From Alphaproteobacteria bacterium (GTDB lineage Bacteria; Pseudomonadota; Alphaproteobacteria; Micropepsales; Micropepsaceae), in the NCBI GenBank assembly GCA_019242395.1, contig JAFAVP010000209.1, forward strand, positions 1 to 32,756: DNA of 32,756 nt. The letters run 5' to 3'. Shown one piece after another: positions 1-11,692 of this stretch. A program made the position numbers and the translations under genes. The stretch's first letter is position 1. Every line of letters starts with the position of its first letter. Under the pieces are notes generated by a model that was not told where the DNA came from, made no database searches, and worked only from the letters and a program-made list of their open reading frames with translations.

Positions 1-48
1 GGATACCTCACAAAGCCGCAGACGCCACGCCAGTTAGCTAATGCGTTC

Positions 49-73
49 ATCCGTTGGCGTAGGGCCAACGGAT
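49..73. repeat. Perfect 10-bp inverted repeat with 5-nt loop (ATCCGTTGGC-gtagg-GCCAACGGAT)
   Basis: Read directly; no T-tract follows, so function (terminator or other) is unclear. Confidence 0.75.
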
Positions 74-79
74 TTGCTG

Positions 80-220
80 TCACGCCTTTCCGCCGACCTT
101 TTTGGGGGAAGAAGGCTTGGCGCGACTCGGTTTAGCCTTTGCTTTCAGCGGTGCATGCGGTTTCGGCGGCGTTTTCAGCAGCCGCTTTAGAACTTCGTCC
201 ACGCGCTTGTAGTCGGTCAT
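80..220 (-). CDS. Candidate 46-aa basic small protein (MTDYKRVDEVLKRLLKTPPKPHAPLKAKAKPSRAKPSSPKKVGGKA)
   Basis: Manual minus-strand translation, ATG to TGA; below the ORF-track size cutoff; Lys/Pro-rich tail; divergent from the 236 ORF. Confidence 0.5.
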   Translation of the reverse strand: MTDYKRVDEVLKRLLKTPPKPHAPLKAKAKPSRAKPSSPKKVGGKA

Positions 221-235
221 ATTGGGGGACATACC

Positions 236-1015
236 ATGTTTGAGAGCGCATATCTAAAGATCGATCGGGCCAAAAAGCATGTCCATGATCTGCAAACGCT
301 CCTCCACAAATATGCGAATGCCGCCCGGATAGAGTTCGAACCGGAAGGCCGCTTCATCACCGTGTACGTTGACCCGAAGGTCGAAGTGGACTCCGCGCTT
401 GTGATCGGAGATGCCGCCCACAACCTCCGATCCGCTCTGGATCACGCGTACTGGGAACTCCTTGGGATCGACACTGGTGGTAAACAGCCCAAAGGAGCCA
501 CGCTGCCAATTCATTGCGACGGGACTGGGGAGAGTTACGAAGGCTCCATAAAAGGAATAAAAAAGGCTACCCCCAGTATCCGCGAGGACACGATCAAGCT
601 CCTTACGAGTCTCGAAGCATACGGCGGTTGGGACAATCGCCTGTGTGCCCTTCATTCGCTCGACATCGGAGACAAGCACAAGCTGCTTACCACGGTCTTC
701 AGCATCACATCGCTGCGTGAGTGCATAGTTATAAAGCCGGACGGGACCAGAGAACCCTGGAGGCGCCTTGGAACATTCTTTTTCAACAAGGTTGACGGCA
801 GCGCGGTCATCACTCCCTTTGATAAGGGGGACAGGTTCGACATACACAGCAAGCCCCAACCGGCCTTGAACATACTTTTCGGCGATATCGAGTACCTCGA
901 TATCCAGAATGTCATGACGGGATTCGTCATTCTGGAGCGCGAGGTTCGTTCCGTGCTGAAACGCATGGAGACCATGCTGGAGCGCCGGGGCGGGACAATG
1001 GGACAGGGCTCATAG
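236..1015 (+). CDS. Hypothetical protein with GDAAHNLRSALDH motif
   Basis: 259-aa ORF; motif resembles one recalled in widespread hypothetical proteins; followed by a strong hairpin. Confidence 0.75.
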   Translation: MFESAYLKIDRAKKHVHDLQTLLHKYANAARIEFEPEGRFITVYVDPKVEVDSALVIGDAAHNLRSALDHAYWELLGIDTGGKQPKGATLPIHCDGTGESYEGSIKGIKKATPSIREDTIKLLTSLEAYGGWDNRLCALHSLDIGDKHKLLTTVFSITSLRECIVIKPDGTREPWRRLGTFFFNKVDGSAVITPFDKGDRFDIHSKPQPALNILFGDIEYLDIQNVMTGFVILEREVRSVLKRMETMLERRGGTMGQGS

Positions 1016-1022
1016 CCATCTC

Positions 1023-1074
1023 TCCGGACCCTCCGTGGGAAATATCAGCGAATTGTATGCCCGGAGGGTCCGGA
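1023..1074. repeat. Perfect 13-bp inverted repeat, 26-nt loop (TCCGGACCCTCCG ... CGGAGGGTCCGGA)
   Basis: Read directly, begins 8 nt after the 236-1015 ORF stop. Confidence 0.85.
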
Positions 1075-1132
1075 ACCTGAGAAGCGTCGGCCTGTCCGGC
1101 CGAATCCTAAACTGCGTTTCTCAAGTATACAA

Positions 1133-1145
1133 TCGCCAATTCCGC
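1133..1145. repeat. Left copy of 13-bp direct repeat TCGCCAATTCCGC (probable target-site duplication or target sequence)
   Basis: Identical to 3985-3997. Confidence 0.8.
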
Positions 1146-1146
1146 C

Positions 1147-1159
1147 CACTTGCCATACC
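1147..1159 (+). repeat. Left terminal inverted repeat CACTTGCCATACC
   Basis: 12/13 match to the minus strand of 3967-3979. Confidence 0.75.
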
Positions 1160-1178
1160 AAGGCCCAAGAGCTAGCAA
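1150..1178 (+). promoter_or_regulatory. Promoter-like boxes in the left end: TTGCCA-17-TAGCAA
   Basis: Same geometry as the right-end promoter; -10 match is weak. Confidence 0.3.
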
Positions 1179-1259
1179 ATGGCCAGGGAACCCGCCGTTT
1201 GGCCGGCTGGCCACCATGATAGTCTCCAGCCCGGACGGCTCTGGAGCCTTTGGGACATC

Positions 1260-2123
1260 ATGAATAACTACGGCGCCCTATTGGTTGGCTTAGGTGCATC
1301 AATTGCACACGCTGGGAATGGTGCGCTCCTCCGTGGCCTCTCCGAAAGTCAGCGCGACATCCTCGTCAGGAAAGAGCCGTCAGGATGGTTTAGGCGGCTG
1401 TATTTCGGTCAGGATCACGTTCTCACGAATGTGCTGGCTGGTTTCGCCACGGCAAACGAACGCAATCTGGAAGGCGCCGAACAGGCCCTCAAGGGCGTGC
1501 TGGAGGATTGTAAGCGGCTGGCGCTGCCCGTTTCCGCAAGGTTGCTTGAGCGGGCCTTAGCAAGCCCCCCCAAGACGCTAGCGGAGTATGAACAGATTAC
1601 CCTTTCGCTTATGGCAGAATTGCAGACAAAGCTATTTGTCTACATTGAGCACGAACGGTGCGGCCTGTACGAGAAGGAAGACATCCTTTCACCTGAATGC
1701 GGCACCAAATTCCCTAGCTGCTTGCGGGAATTGAAAGAGGCGGCCAACGCATTTGTCTTTGGATTGCCCACGGCATGTGTCTTCCATTCGATGCGGGCGG
1801 CAGAACTGGGCGCACGCGCATTGGCACACGATTTGGGTGTTTCGTTTCCCTACCCTCTAGAACTGGCCGACATGCATTGCGTCCTGGACCAGATTGAATC
1901 CAAGATTCTCGCAAAGAAAAACCTGCCGAAGAGCGCTGACAAGGATGGGCAGCTTAAGTTCTATTCGGAGGCCGCAGCACAGTTTCGCTACTTCAAAGAT
2001 GCGTGGCGAGTGCGCGTTGCCCACGCGCGGGAGTCATTCACGGACAAGCAGGCCCTATCAATTCTAGATCATGTCCGCGACTTGCTTGAGGTGCTTTCGC
2101 AGCGCCTCACGGAACCGTTTTAG
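1260..2123 (+). CDS. Hypothetical passenger protein, HEPN-like R-X4-H motif near C-terminus
   Basis: ORF open from 1179; start at 1260 (MNNYG) preferred because 1179 directly abuts the putative -10 box; RVRVAH at 2007-2024. Confidence 0.65.
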   Translation: MNNYGALLVGLGASIAHAGNGALLRGLSESQRDILVRKEPSGWFRRLYFGQDHVLTNVLAGFATANERNLEGAEQALKGVLEDCKRLALPVSARLLERALASPPKTLAEYEQITLSLMAELQTKLFVYIEHERCGLYEKEDILSPECGTKFPSCLRELKEAANAFVFGLPTACVFHSMRAAELGARALAHDLGVSFPYPLELADMHCVLDQIESKILAKKNLPKSADKDGQLKFYSEAAAQFRYFKDAWRVRVAHARESFTDKQALSILDHVRDLLEVLSQRLTEPF

Positions 2124-2301
2124 AGGTGACGCGCTTGAACGCCCTGTCGAAATCCTTCGGGTCTTTGGAAGCCTCGGCCTCGCGAGCCGCTTCTAGGAAG
2201 CGGGCATATTGGGCTTCTTTGTCGCCCGCCCCTTTCGGAACGGCCTTCGATTTCGCGCTACGGGACGGCGGTTTGCGCTTTGACGCTGATTTGCGAGGCA
2301 T
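2107..2301 (-). CDS. Small basic protein (MPRKSASKRKPPSRSAKSKAVPKG...)
   Basis: 64-aa ORF, Lys/Arg/Ser-rich N-terminus, same strand as tnp and GIY-YIG; ORF extends to 2328. Confidence 0.55.
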   Translation of the reverse strand: MPRKSASKRKPPSRSAKSKAVPKGAGDKEAQYARFLEAAREAEASKDPKDFDRAFKRVTSKTVP

Positions 2302-2452
2302 GTCGCAATGATAGCAGCCCTCGCCCATTCTGTGAAATTGGCAGTGAGCAATTTCCTTTGGAAGATGCTCACGCCACAGTTTAACGCCCGTCTGACCGAC
2401 CGGCTTTTAGACTTTTATGACGGCCTGCTTGAACGCGGCCAGATTGCAGCCC

Positions 2453-2806
2453 CTACGCCCGGAGCAATGAGGTTAGCAGCGTCGAAGACTGATGCTGGAC
2501 ATTCATTGGCGGGCACAGCGATCCAATTAGGTCGCGTTCTACCCTTTGCCGGTCGGCCTGATTTGCGGAAGACACAAGGGCCAGAACATGTGTAGCGCCA
2601 AGCCGCACAGCCTCATTCCAGCGTTCATGGGTGCAAAAGCGGTCCTTCGCGTTTTCGCTCTCGCCAACATAGAGCGCCTTCCAGAACAGCGGCATCCGGT
2701 GCGCAAAGATGTAGATAACTGGCACGGGATTCCAGTTATCGCTCATCTGATAAATGCCGAAATTGTAGATAGCGCCCGATGCGCCAGTGACAGTCATGTT
2801 TTCCAT
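2453..2806 (-). CDS. GIY-YIG nuclease-like protein, 117 aa
   Basis: IYIF...ALYVGES, DRF, ERDLI, PPMN signatures; ATG at 2806 preceded by AAGGAGG (2812-2818). Confidence 0.7.
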   Translation of the reverse strand: MENMTVTGASGAIYNFGIYQMSDNWNPVPVIYIFAHRMPLFWKALYVGESENAKDRFCTHERWNEAVRLGATHVLALVSSANQADRQRVERDLIGSLCPPMNVQHQSSTLLTSLLRA

Positions 2807-2904
2807 GTCGGCCTCCTTCGCCGATGTGAGTTGCGGGGCGGCAGCCGATCTCGCGAATCGGTTTGCCGTCGCCGCAACAATGACATGTGCAAGGGGGTGA
2901 GGTG

Positions 2905-2923
2905 CGAATCCGTGGCGGATTCG
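2905..2923. repeat. Perfect 8-bp hairpin CGAATCCG-TGG-CGGATTCG
   Basis: Lies between the tnp stop and the GIY-YIG start. Confidence 0.7.
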
Positions 2924-2986
2924 TTCTATCCATCCACAGGCTTGTTTAGCCGCCTCACCCAATACCGCGCCAATTCGCGGAAAGTC

Positions 2987-3928
2987 TTAAAACGGCGGGG
3001 CTTGGTCACTAGTCGTTTGGTAGGTCAGCCGCTTGCCGACTGCCCCTGCCAGCGCGATCTCCGAACGCATAACGTCATTCACGCCAAGCCGCTCGCGGGT
3101 GTTCTGCCGGAAATCAAATTCCGCCAGATAGCGGTCAAGGTGGCGCTCCGAAACGTGCTGATAGGTGCCGACCATTCCGCGCTTAAACACGCTGAAAAAG
3201 TCTTCAAGGGTATTGGTATGCACGTCGCCATCAGTGACGTATTCCTTGGAGTGGTCCACCCATTGGTGCTTGCTGGCGTACAGCGGAACGGTGCTGCGAT
3301 AGGCTTGAGCCCCGTCAGTGACCAAGCGGCTTTTCGGATCAACATTCCGCCAAAGCGCGGATTTGATCTGGTGCATGTTGGCTCCGTCAATCCGCATGGA
3401 ACGGGTGTTTCCGCCGCGCTCCACAAGGCTCAGGACAGCTACGCAGTGAGCGTTGCCGCTGGCGCCACGGCGCTTGCGGGTGTGGCGCGAATTGGTCAGG
3501 AAGTTTTCATCCGCTTCCACAGTGTTGCCCTCGCCGCCCAGCTTGGAGCCTTCCGCTGGCTTCATTATCTCGCGAATGCGATGGGTCAGAAACCACGCGG
3601 TTTTCATGGAACAGCGCAGCAGCCGCTGTATCTGCCGGGTCGAAATTCCCTTTTTGGACGCGCACATAAGGTGGATTACCTGAAGCCACAGATGAAGCGG
3701 CAGGTGACTGGACTCGAAAATGGTCCCCATGCGCACGGTGAAGGGCTTCTTGCACTCGTAGCACTTGTGAAGGCCGGGGCGAGTGGTCTTGCCCGCAAGG
3801 CGGCCCACGCGTTCGCCAGAGCCGCAGAACGGGCACTTAGGGCCGTTCGGCCACAGGTGGCTTTCGACATACGCGAAAGCGGCGTTTTCGTCTTGAAAGT
3901 GCGGGGCGGAAAGGACGTTGCGGGCCAT
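2987..3928 (-). CDS. tnp: IS1595 family (ISXO2-like) transposase
   Basis: N-terminal CPFC...CYEC zinc ribbon, VEADE, VTDGAQAY, HTNTLEDFFSVFKRG; full-length. Confidence 0.92.
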   Translation of the reverse strand: MARNVLSAPHFQDENAAFAYVESHLWPNGPKCPFCGSGERVGRLAGKTTRPGLHKCYECKKPFTVRMGTIFESSHLPLHLWLQVIHLMCASKKGISTRQIQRLLRCSMKTAWFLTHRIREIMKPAEGSKLGGEGNTVEADENFLTNSRHTRKRRGASGNAHCVAVLSLVERGGNTRSMRIDGANMHQIKSALWRNVDPKSRLVTDGAQAYRSTVPLYASKHQWVDHSKEYVTDGDVHTNTLEDFFSVFKRGMVGTYQHVSERHLDRYLAEFDFRQNTRERLGVNDVMRSEIALAGAVGKRLTYQTTSDQAPPF

Positions 3929-3947
3929 GACTATCTCCTACCCGCTC

Positions 3948-3976
3948 AATCTAGTTATTGGGGTTAGGTATGTCAA
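3948..3976 (-). promoter_or_regulatory. Sigma70-type promoter for transposase: TTGACA-17-TAGATT
   Basis: Minus-strand boxes at 3971-3976 and 3948-3953, overlapping the right inverted repeat. Confidence 0.6.
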
Positions 3977-3979
3977 GTG
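3967..3979 (-). repeat. Right terminal inverted repeat (minus strand CACTTGACATACC)
   Basis: 12/13 match to 1147-1159. Confidence 0.75.
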
Positions 3980-3984
3980 TAACG

Positions 3985-3997
3985 TCGCCAATTCCGC
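3985..3997. repeat. Right copy of 13-bp direct repeat TCGCCAATTCCGC
   Basis: Identical to 1133-1145. Confidence 0.8.
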
Positions 3998-4015: not shown

Positions 4016-4300
4016 CTACAGCCGCTCCCAGAATCGCGGCTCCTGGGTGTAGCAGCGCTCATCCATCTGGCTGCACAGCGGCCTCAGCTTGAAGCGCTCT
4101 GCCTGCATGCATTCCAGAATGTAGCGTGGTACGAGCGTGCCCATCTTGCTGTGGCGCTGATGCGCCTCGCTGCGCCAGCCCGGCGCCTGCTTGTCGAGCT
4201 GGGCATAACAGGCGGTCATGGTAGCATGGGCGCCTGGGGGCCTGCCGCAAGCCGAAAGACAGATTGCGGTCATCGCGAGGACTCCTGCCAGTCTGCCCAT
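4016..4300 (-). CDS. Putative lipoprotein of unknown function
   Basis: MGRLAGVLAMTAICLSAC lipobox-type signal; ORF extends upstream to 4369. Confidence 0.6.
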   Translation of the reverse strand: MGRLAGVLAMTAICLSACGRPPGAHATMTACYAQLDKQAPGWRSEAHQRHSKMGTLVPRYILECMQAERFKLRPLCSQMDERCYTQEPRFWERL

Positions 4301-4532
4301 GCGGTATGGCGGCTGTGTGCCGGCCGGCGACGCTGTTATCACCATTAAAGTCCTGACTATTTCCAGCATATTGTCAGTAGCGGGAGGTTCTGTCTGCCGG
4401 TTTCAATCATGTCCATCTTTCACTTTCCTTTTTTGCCGATATACGCCGAACCTGCGTGGACCACGAAAGCGGAGCGGCGACGGAGAATGCCGGGAAATTG
4501 GGTTGGCTGCTGAATCAGATTATGATGCCGAC

Positions 4533-10433: not shown

Positions 10434-11692
10434 TGGCCTTCTGCCGCGACTGCCTGAATGATCAACGGCAGAGCGCGGCGCGGTGCTCAGTGTGCGGCAG
10501 CCATCGTGTTGTGTCGCATCCTGAACTGGCGGCGCTCTCGATTGCCCATCTTGACTGCGATGCCTTCTACGCCGCCATCGAAAAGCGGGATGATCCGTCG
10601 CTGGCTGGCAAACCGGTTATCATTGGCGGCGGCAAGCGTGGCGTGGTGGCGACGGCCTGCTACATCGCGCGCACCTACGGCGTGCGCTCCGCGATGCCGA
10701 TGTTCCAGGCGCTCCAACTCTGCCCCAATCCGGTTATCCTTAAACCGCGGATGGCGAAGTATGTGGAGGTGGCGCGCGACGTTCGGCGGCTGATGCGGGA
10801 TATCACGCCTTTGGTCGAGCCGCTGTCCCTCGACGAGGCCTACCTCGATCTCTCCGGCACGGAGCGGCTGCATGGGGCTATGCCGGCCAAAACGCTGGCG
10901 GCCCTAGCGCTGCGCGTAGAACGCGAGATCGGAATTACCGTCTCGGTCGGCCTTAGCTTCAACAAGTTTCTCGCCAAACTTGCTTCCGATCTCGACAAGC
11001 CGCGCGGCTTCGCTGTGATCGGCCGTGCCGAAGCAAAGACCTTCCTGCGTGATAAACCGGTATCCTTCATCCGCGGCGCTGGCGCGTCGCTTCAGGGCCG
11101 GCTGGCAAAGGATGGCCTCACCACCATCCGGCAGTTGCAGGACGCCAGCCCACGCGAACTCGCAAAGCGATACGGAAGCACCGGTCTCTGGTTACATCGA
11201 CTCGTCAATGCCGAGGATGATCGCAAGGTCGATCCGGCAGGCGAACTGAAGAGCATCTCCTCCGAAACCACCTTCGAGAGGAACCTAACGAAAATTGCGG
11301 AACTTGAGCGGATTCTCTGGCTGCAATGCGAGCGCGTGGGCGCGCGGGCCAAAGCCTCCGGACTCGGCGGACGGACGGTGGTGCTTAAACTGAAAACAGC
11401 CGCTTTCCGCACCCGCACCCGGAGCGTATCGCTCGATGCGCCCACGCAATTGGCTGACCGCATTTTCCGGGTTGCCCGAGAAGCCTTGCGGCGCGAAGCG
11501 GATGGCACGGCGTTCCGCCTCCTCGGTGCGGGCCTGCAAAACATCTGTCCGGAGACCGAGTGCGATCCGATCGACTTGGTCGATCAGGAAGCCGCCAAGC
11601 GCGCCTCCGCGGAACGAGCGATGGACAAAGTGCGCGCCAAGTTCGGCGAAGCAGCGGTCGGTAAAGGCCGCGCCTTGCGGTCAATACGATGA
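10433..11692 (+). CDS. dinB: DNA polymerase IV with N-terminal CxxC...CxxC extension
   Basis: IAHLDCDAFYAAIEKRDDP, PLSLDEAYLDLSGTERL; TGATG overlap with ROK gene. Confidence 0.93.
   Translation: MAFCRDCLNDQRQSAARCSVCGSHRVVSHPELAALSIAHLDCDAFYAAIEKRDDPSLAGKPVIIGGGKRGVVATACYIARTYGVRSAMPMFQALQLCPNPVILKPRMAKYVEVARDVRRLMRDITPLVEPLSLDEAYLDLSGTERLHGAMPAKTLAALALRVEREIGITVSVGLSFNKFLAKLASDLDKPRGFAVIGRAEAKTFLRDKPVSFIRGAGASLQGRLAKDGLTTIRQLQDASPRELAKRYGSTGLWLHRLVNAEDDRKVDPAGELKSISSETTFERNLTKIAELERILWLQCERVGARAKASGLGGRTVVLKLKTAAFRTRTRSVSLDAPTQLADRIFRVAREALRREADGTAFRLLGAGLQNICPETECDPIDLVDQEAAKRASAERAMDKVRAKFGEAAVGKGRALRSIR

Follow-up and report, generated by a model that had tools for sequence, protein, structure and literature searches.

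The stretch of DNA analysed here (the window, 32,756 nucleotides) carries at positions 1146-3989 what we consider, with high confidence, to be a passenger-carrying IS1595 transposon of a class that aims for dif sites. This element, Y, stands in a stack with a second IS1595 transposon, X, in the order dif-AATTCCGC-X-AATTCCGC-Y-AATTCCGC. The dif site is conserved and occurs about once per circular bacterial chromosome; XerC and XerD resolve chromosome dimers there, and it matters for segregation. A preliminary description of this DNA had drawn a single passenger-carrying transposon with precise ends. Its observation was partly confirmed and its interpretation partly supported, and it overlooked both the second transposon at the left and the dif-site target.

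Transposase and family membership

The features of Y and its surroundings are as follows (coordinates of the window).

1138-1145, no strand: middle copy of the 8-bp target duplication, AATTCCGC; a third copy lies beside dif on contig C98
1146-1159, no strand: distal terminal repeat of Y, without its outer ~9 bp (from the distal ends of 43 relatives)
1179-2123, plus strand: HEPN-family passenger, 314 aa (Pfam, R277/H282, Foldseek)
2107-2328, minus strand: S, conserved small basic protein, conserved start probably at 2301 (recurrence in Y-type elements, purifying selection)
2453-2806, minus strand: tentative GIY-YIG-like passenger (sub-threshold Pfam score; homologues in 6 of 289 genomes)
2987-3928, minus strand: IS1595-family transposase, 313 aa, intact (Pfam, NCBIfam, alignment)
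3948-3976, minus strand: promoter-like site of the transposase, TTGACA (3976-3971), 17 bp, TAGATT (3953-3948), read from the sequence
3967-3989, no strand: proximal terminal repeat of Y, inward GGCGACGTTACACTTGACATACC (consensus of relatives)
3990-3997, no strand: outer copy of the 8-bp target duplication, AATTCCGC
4016-4369, minus strand: host flank gene, 117 aa, lipoprotein-like according to the preliminary description (orthologue 49% identical in the congener G069)

The transposase matched PF12762 with 105.8 bits (cut-off 27; E=2.7e-30), PF12760 with 44.8 bits (cut-off 25.4) and NF033547 with 186.4 bits (cut-off 75), which bore out the earlier reading of an IS1595-type transposase in a passenger-carrying element. 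All positions that are at least 95% conserved in 43 aligned transposases were kept in the Y protein, catalytic and zinc-finger residues included, among them C32, C35, C56, C59, D140, D205, N239 and E242. Inverted terminal repeats and an 8-bp duplication were also present: the right end and the 8-mer are exact and the left repeat lacks ~9 bp, while the 43 relatives are exact. Y belongs to the IS1595 family (Pfam DDE_Tnp_IS1595), with which it shared every feature tested, namely the transposase family with its zinc ribbon and catalytic domain, the inverted terminal repeats and the 8-bp duplications. The TTGACA of the promoter-like site lies within the terminal repeat, and TTGAC is retained in most proximal ends of the relatives.

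Ends and target duplication of transposon Y

The DNA upstream of the transposases was compared at 56 loci from bacterial genomes and about 30 loci from related genomes that encode transposase relatives, and the shared terminal sequence was GGCGAYGTTWCACTTGACATACC. Complete elements were defined by identical 8 bases on both sides together with matching ends; 43 such relatives, 1.7-4.2 kb long and with exact 8-bp duplications, gave a family terminal repeat of ~23 bp that begins with GGCGA, GGCGAYGTTWCACTTG(A/C)CATACC. Because the relatives end in this way, the right end of Y is placed at 3989, where AATTCCGC (3990-3997) adjoins it. The left repeat starts at 1146 with CCACTTGCCATACC and, compared with the distal ends of the 43 relatives, its outer ~9 bp are absent. 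Y, tipless at the end that faces dif, may be unable to move.

The repeats named in the preliminary description, CACTTGCCATACC at 1147-1159 with CACTTGACATACC on the minus strand of 3967-3979, and the direct repeat TCGCCAATTCCGC at 1133-1145 and 3985-3997, were all found in place. They are not due to chance, since the 13-bp direct repeat sits inside a 30-bp direct repeat of 80% identity (1116-1145 / 3968-3997). The meaning given to them did not hold. The 12/13-bp inverted repeats are ruled out as termini by the ~23-bp GGCGA ends of the relatives, and the 13-bp direct repeat consists of the TCGCC tips (5 bp) of two different elements plus the 8-bp AATTCCGC. The suggested target duplication, TCGCCAATT, was likewise rejected in favour of AATTCCGC, and the boundaries drawn with it are contradicted by the family repeat. 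The left end is not precise either, as it lacks its outer bases, and another transposon ends right beyond a single copy of the 8-mer. Other copies with different termini, which the same description had named as evidence against itself, were indeed found for the termini as it drew them.

No close copies of Y were found in its own or related genomes, where the best match was 72% over part of the transposase and 62% at the protein level. In 385 genomes, a strict pattern for proximal ends matched only twice, once at dif.

Second transposon and reconstruction of the locus

The far end of X lies at 1116-1137 (reverse complement GGCGATTGTATACTTGAGAAAC) and is of a type shared with L055, L073, L077, L085 and the element of G069. 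Window positions 1-1137 belong to X and hold its small basic ORF and its 259-aa passenger; the window begins in the last codons of the X transposase gene.

1-41, plus strand: last codons of the X transposase (frame 3, with TAA as stop codon at 39-41, by alignment with the end of the transposase gene of L055)
80-232, minus strand: small basic ORF of X-type elements (relatives in L055, L073, L085, L019 and others)
236-1015, plus strand: X passenger, 259 aa (ORF; no Pfam or NCBIfam match)
1116-1137, no strand: distal terminal repeat of X, inward GGCGATTGTATACTTGAGAAAC (ends of L055, L073, L085 and the G069 element)

The ORF at 1-132 had been a candidate for the C-terminus of this transposase and was rejected, being out of frame with the true stop at 39-41. 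Contig C63 begins with the window, and the assembly therefore truncates X. Its 205 N-terminal transposase codons were found on contig C98, running off that contig; about 300 bp of the gene are absent from the assembly. From position 10870, C98 reads CGTATAATCTATATTATGGGC, then AATTCCGC, then GGCGATTATATACTTGAC, followed by the 205 codons. The dif on C98, TTCGTATAATCTATATTATGGGC, is the sole dif match in the genome of the window, and the 8-mer beside it is identical to both window copies of AATTCCGC, which gives the locus order dif-AATTCCGC-X-AATTCCGC-Y-AATTCCGC-host gene. A dif beyond X had been predicted from the relatives that lie at dif and from the contig order of G069, and it was then found on C98.

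C98 is linked to the window by the 8-mer that they share, by an X-type transposase of which each has one half, and by the gene order of a single congener; there is no joining sequence. The join is supported by this congener, G069, where a single contig bears mazG, dif and an IS1595 element together with the orthologue of the gene beside Y. A mazG homologue is found near the C98 dif and in about a dozen other loci, most of them with dif, and for this reason the C98 dif is probably the chromosomal one. Several IS1595 transposases were observed at contig edges in this genome (C63, C98, C194, C227 and C176), and IS1595 repeats probably break its assembly.

dif as insertion target

The dif core was searched as CATAA-N6-TTATG. 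It was found near 9 of 68 proximal ends, always 11 nt away. Among the 43 complete elements, 18 have dif as their neighbour; the distance to the TTATG arm is exactly 11 nt in every one of them (0.008 such cases were expected), and dif occurred at no other of the 45 distances. This spacing corresponds to 3 nt plus the 8-bp duplication. Five of these elements meet dif with the proximal end and 13 with the distal end, and the elements are found on both sides of dif. The dif match was perfect in 15 of the 18 and had one mismatch in three; otherwise dif was clearly absent, with a few degenerate forms at the same spacing. Three of the seven complete elements of a set drawn separately also obeyed the 11-nt rule. 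As many relatives in other species sit at the same spot beside dif, this transposon group appears to aim for it.

Of 69 genomes in the genus of the window, 50 have dif, at about one site per genome. IS1595 ends were counted from 14 matching bases out of 18 upwards. One stood at the expected position on one side of 10 of the 51 dif sites, and a further site had a weaker end on the opposite side; about a fifth of the dif sites are thus occupied. A partial second copy of the left part of dif was seen ~28 bp from dif at G077:C1:3718155-3718247.

In the assembly G005 of this genus, dif is empty on contig C822 and filled on contig C871, and the flanks of the two sites agree over 95 bp at 100% and over 145 bp at 98.6%. 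At the filled dif, ACTCACAT is duplicated around a 3.7-kb element encoding an IS1595 transposase. The assembly is estimated to be 8% contaminated, and the two versions may stem from two strains. The empty site called for by the preliminary description was thus found for a relative; that of Y itself was not recovered from its right flank in the genus, where G069, the sole orthologous locus by this flank, gave no alignment outside the flanking gene.

These data bear on two simpler accounts. It could be that Y is a single passenger-carrying IS1595 transposon at an arbitrary site with a chance insertion sequence as its left neighbour; passenger-carrying elements are frequent in the family and about half of the relatives lack a recognisable dif. 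We regard this as very improbable, because chance cannot account for an 8-mer that is present three times, once exactly next to dif, or for the identical distance from dif in 18 of 43 relatives, and the G005 pair strongly disfavours it as well. Entry into dif by XerCD recombination, like that of IMEX elements and some phages, would explain why the elements live at dif, and such elements are known (PMC9765430). We give it almost no credence: each locus has a single dif, and a complete element (43 in all) was never flanked by dif at both ends; the elements have a DDE-type transposase, inverted ends and 8-bp duplications; and the G005 pair is a simple insertion duplicating ACTCACAT. Insertion by the transposase at a chosen position beside dif is our preferred reading.

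The end-to-end pairs L019 and L034 are likewise at dif. L019 has three copies of its 8-mer, and L034 has two copies and the end of a second element before the contig stops. Junctions of the form end-8 bp-end, seen in L019, L034 and L161, could also mean that IS1595 ends are themselves preferred targets, so that X went into the flank of Y and dif is incidental. This seems to us improbable, as dif lies at the outer edge of L019, of L034 and of the X/Y locus, and repeated use of dif explains these three junctions. End-to-end insertion as a separate preference was set aside as mostly accounted for by dif re-use in L019 and L034.

dif is not the sole target of these transposons. In about half of the complete relatives no dif can be recognised at the insertion, and some lie at LexA-type boxes, a palindrome or C/G-run hairpins. 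LexA-type boxes, GTTC-N7-GTTC, were seen upstream of the proximal ends at 15 nt in L018/L099, L024, L038 and L049 and at 12 nt in L047 and L156; they occurred at 5 of 68 discovery ends and, in the second set, at 1 of about 24, against a control rate of 0.17% per 70 bp. An 18-bp palindrome, GCGGTATTATRATACCG(C/T), 8 nt from the elements, abuts the target duplication in three loci, in the proximal flank of L043/L068 and L058 and in the distal flank of L053. L007, L044, L061, L080, L084, L086, L087, L158 and L168, mostly with GGGA-type ends, lie within C-run/G-run hairpins, which are probably intergenic terminator or repeat sequences. The fixed spacing from the LexA-type boxes and the palindrome would fit a general recognition of protein-bound sites.

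The same use of LexA-type boxes and other dyad sites at fixed spacing could mean that dif is not recognised as such, and that the transposase favours AT-rich or dyad-symmetric DNA of which dif is one example. We consider this unlikely, though it deserves some weight: the spacing at dif is constant to the single nucleotide, and dif accounts for 42% of complete insertions despite being present about once per genome.

Passenger genes and the conserved small protein

The preliminary description had counted three further ORFs besides the transposase, and this count stands, with four ORFs between the ends (transposase, GIY-YIG-like, small basic and HEPN). It had implied that such cargo is exceptional, which the relatives contradict: all 43 with a verified target duplication exceed what a transposase needs, and nearly all carry extra genes. 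As to whether this cargo combination is new, the exact pair is absent elsewhere in the searched loci, but HEPN-family genes and the small basic gene do appear there in the same arrangement.

The HEPN protein scored 21.5 bits against the Pfam HEPN model, 0.5 bit short of the cut-off of 22. R277 and H282 are invariant in six homologues (R-x4-H; the superfamily motif is R-x4-6-H), and the best Foldseek match was the HEPN structure 2hsb (prob 0.99, E=0.28). The product of 1179-2123 thus has both the fold and the R-x4-6-H motif of the HEPN superfamily. The protein of 2453-2806 reached 12.3 bits with the GIY-YIG model, below the cut-off of 22.4, a resemblance of motif only, and is tentatively regarded as a GIY-YIG protein.

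Apart from S, the passengers differ from element to element. Pfam searches of 68 passenger ORFs gave DUF3800 in eight, and PIN, DUF433/DUF5615, a MazF/PemK toxin, SieB, GmrSD, HNH and others; PADLOC indicated candidate defence proteins. S, a basic protein of ~50 aa, was found in 36 of 37 complete Y-type elements, Y included, always on the strand of the transposase; the sole exception, L058, is shortened. It is under purifying selection, with pN/pS of about 0.3-0.5 in most of the closer pairs and the third codon positions most variable. Convergent passengers are present in 21 elements; in 17 of these the 3' end of the passenger gene runs into the end of S. Among the S matches in 61 genomes, 13 of 16 were beside an IS1595 transposase, two were near contig edges and one was in a transposase-less element.

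A transposase-less element of 973 bp with near-identical ends, at L109:996-1968, holds S and the apparent start of a DUF3800 gene. In RefSeq, plasmid-borne relatives of S are annotated as hypothetical proteins following a VapC/PIN gene. The annotated plasmid elements L147 (NZ_CP061092.1) and L148 (NZ_JX627580.1) have, in this order, a transposase, a hypothetical protein of ~270 aa, PIN/VapC and an S of ~61 aa, an arrangement similar to that of L030, L050 and L060.

Searches of Pfam, NCBIfam, PHROG and PDB gave no useful match for S, apart from one RelB-like hit (E=0.005) among 35 members, and its AlphaFold model consists of two helices with low confidence (pLDDT 68). S as the selector of dif was disfavoured, since X-type elements without a detected S (L055, L073, L077) are also at dif. 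X-type elements without a detected S (window 80-232; L055, L073, L085, L019) have another small basic ORF on the opposite strand, directly after the transposase.

Discussion

Insertion takes place just inside one recombinase arm, near its outer limit, where the footprint of the bound protein is expected to end. By its position, the 8-bp staggered target starts 8 nt outside the dif central region; we propose that the transposase joins the transposon ends to this target and may read either the dif DNA or bound XerC/XerD. The first three target bases are the outer edge of the Xer arm and are duplicated, and the sequence shows that insertion leaves dif whole and re-creates the target next to it, so that dif survives and the target can serve again. 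A second insertion at the same target gives three copies of the 8-mer, as at the Y/X locus and in L019. Since X adjoins dif, Y probably came to dif first, and X would have followed at the same 8 bp, between dif and Y.

More broadly, a clade of small-cargo IS1595 transposons may hunt protein-bound landmarks, chiefly dif/XerCD, also LexA-type boxes and operators, through contacts of the transposase with the bound proteins, perhaps tuned by S, and build re-usable toxin/defence stacks at dif. We offer this as a speculative proposal about which we remain somewhat doubtful.

Members of the IS1595 family with passengers reportedly exist, as Siguier and co-workers are said to have noted in 2009; compared with the known family, dif targeting and the conserved small basic protein are undescribed in the literature that we found. 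The literature search gave no paper with both 'IS1595' and 'dif site', an earlier mention being still possible, and papers with IS1595 and XerC apparently concern other subjects, judging by their titles. Passenger-carrying IS1595 elements are known, and dif targeting is a new variant. Homing to site-specific recombination sites also recalls the Tn5053/Tn402 'res site hunters', which target resolvase (res) sites by a multi-protein Tni system; the two are likened here by description.

The IS1202 family (ISAjo2, ISAba71) targets pdif and dif; its members are 1.5 kb long, with a TnsB-like transposase of 441-457 aa and 5-bp duplications, and insert 5 bp from the XerC site in constant orientation on the XerC side, for which an interaction with XerC bound at dif was proposed (PMC10132070). 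Both groups keep a fixed distance from a Xer arm beside dif. In contrast, the IS1595 elements have 8-bp duplications, lie 11 nt from TTATG, encode a 313-aa transposase, carry passengers and use either end and either side; Y is not an IS1202-family element, though it aims for dif alike. IMEX elements also reside at dif and exploit XerCD, integrating by Xer recombination with two flanking dif-like sites (PMC9765430), whereas the IS1595 elements have a single dif and a duplication of the transposition type. Y is not an IMEX.

A transposon family able to insert repeatedly beside dif without breaking it has found a near-universal safe harbour. The targeting of dif explains stacked transposons with common duplications, and it allows the choice of target by a DDE-type transposase to be tested directly. 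The IS1595 ends also give a handle to locate dif in new genomes. Taken together, the near-universal S and the changing toxin-antitoxin-like and defence-like cargo suggest that in Alphaproteobacteria dif may be a small landing pad where accessory genes arrive.
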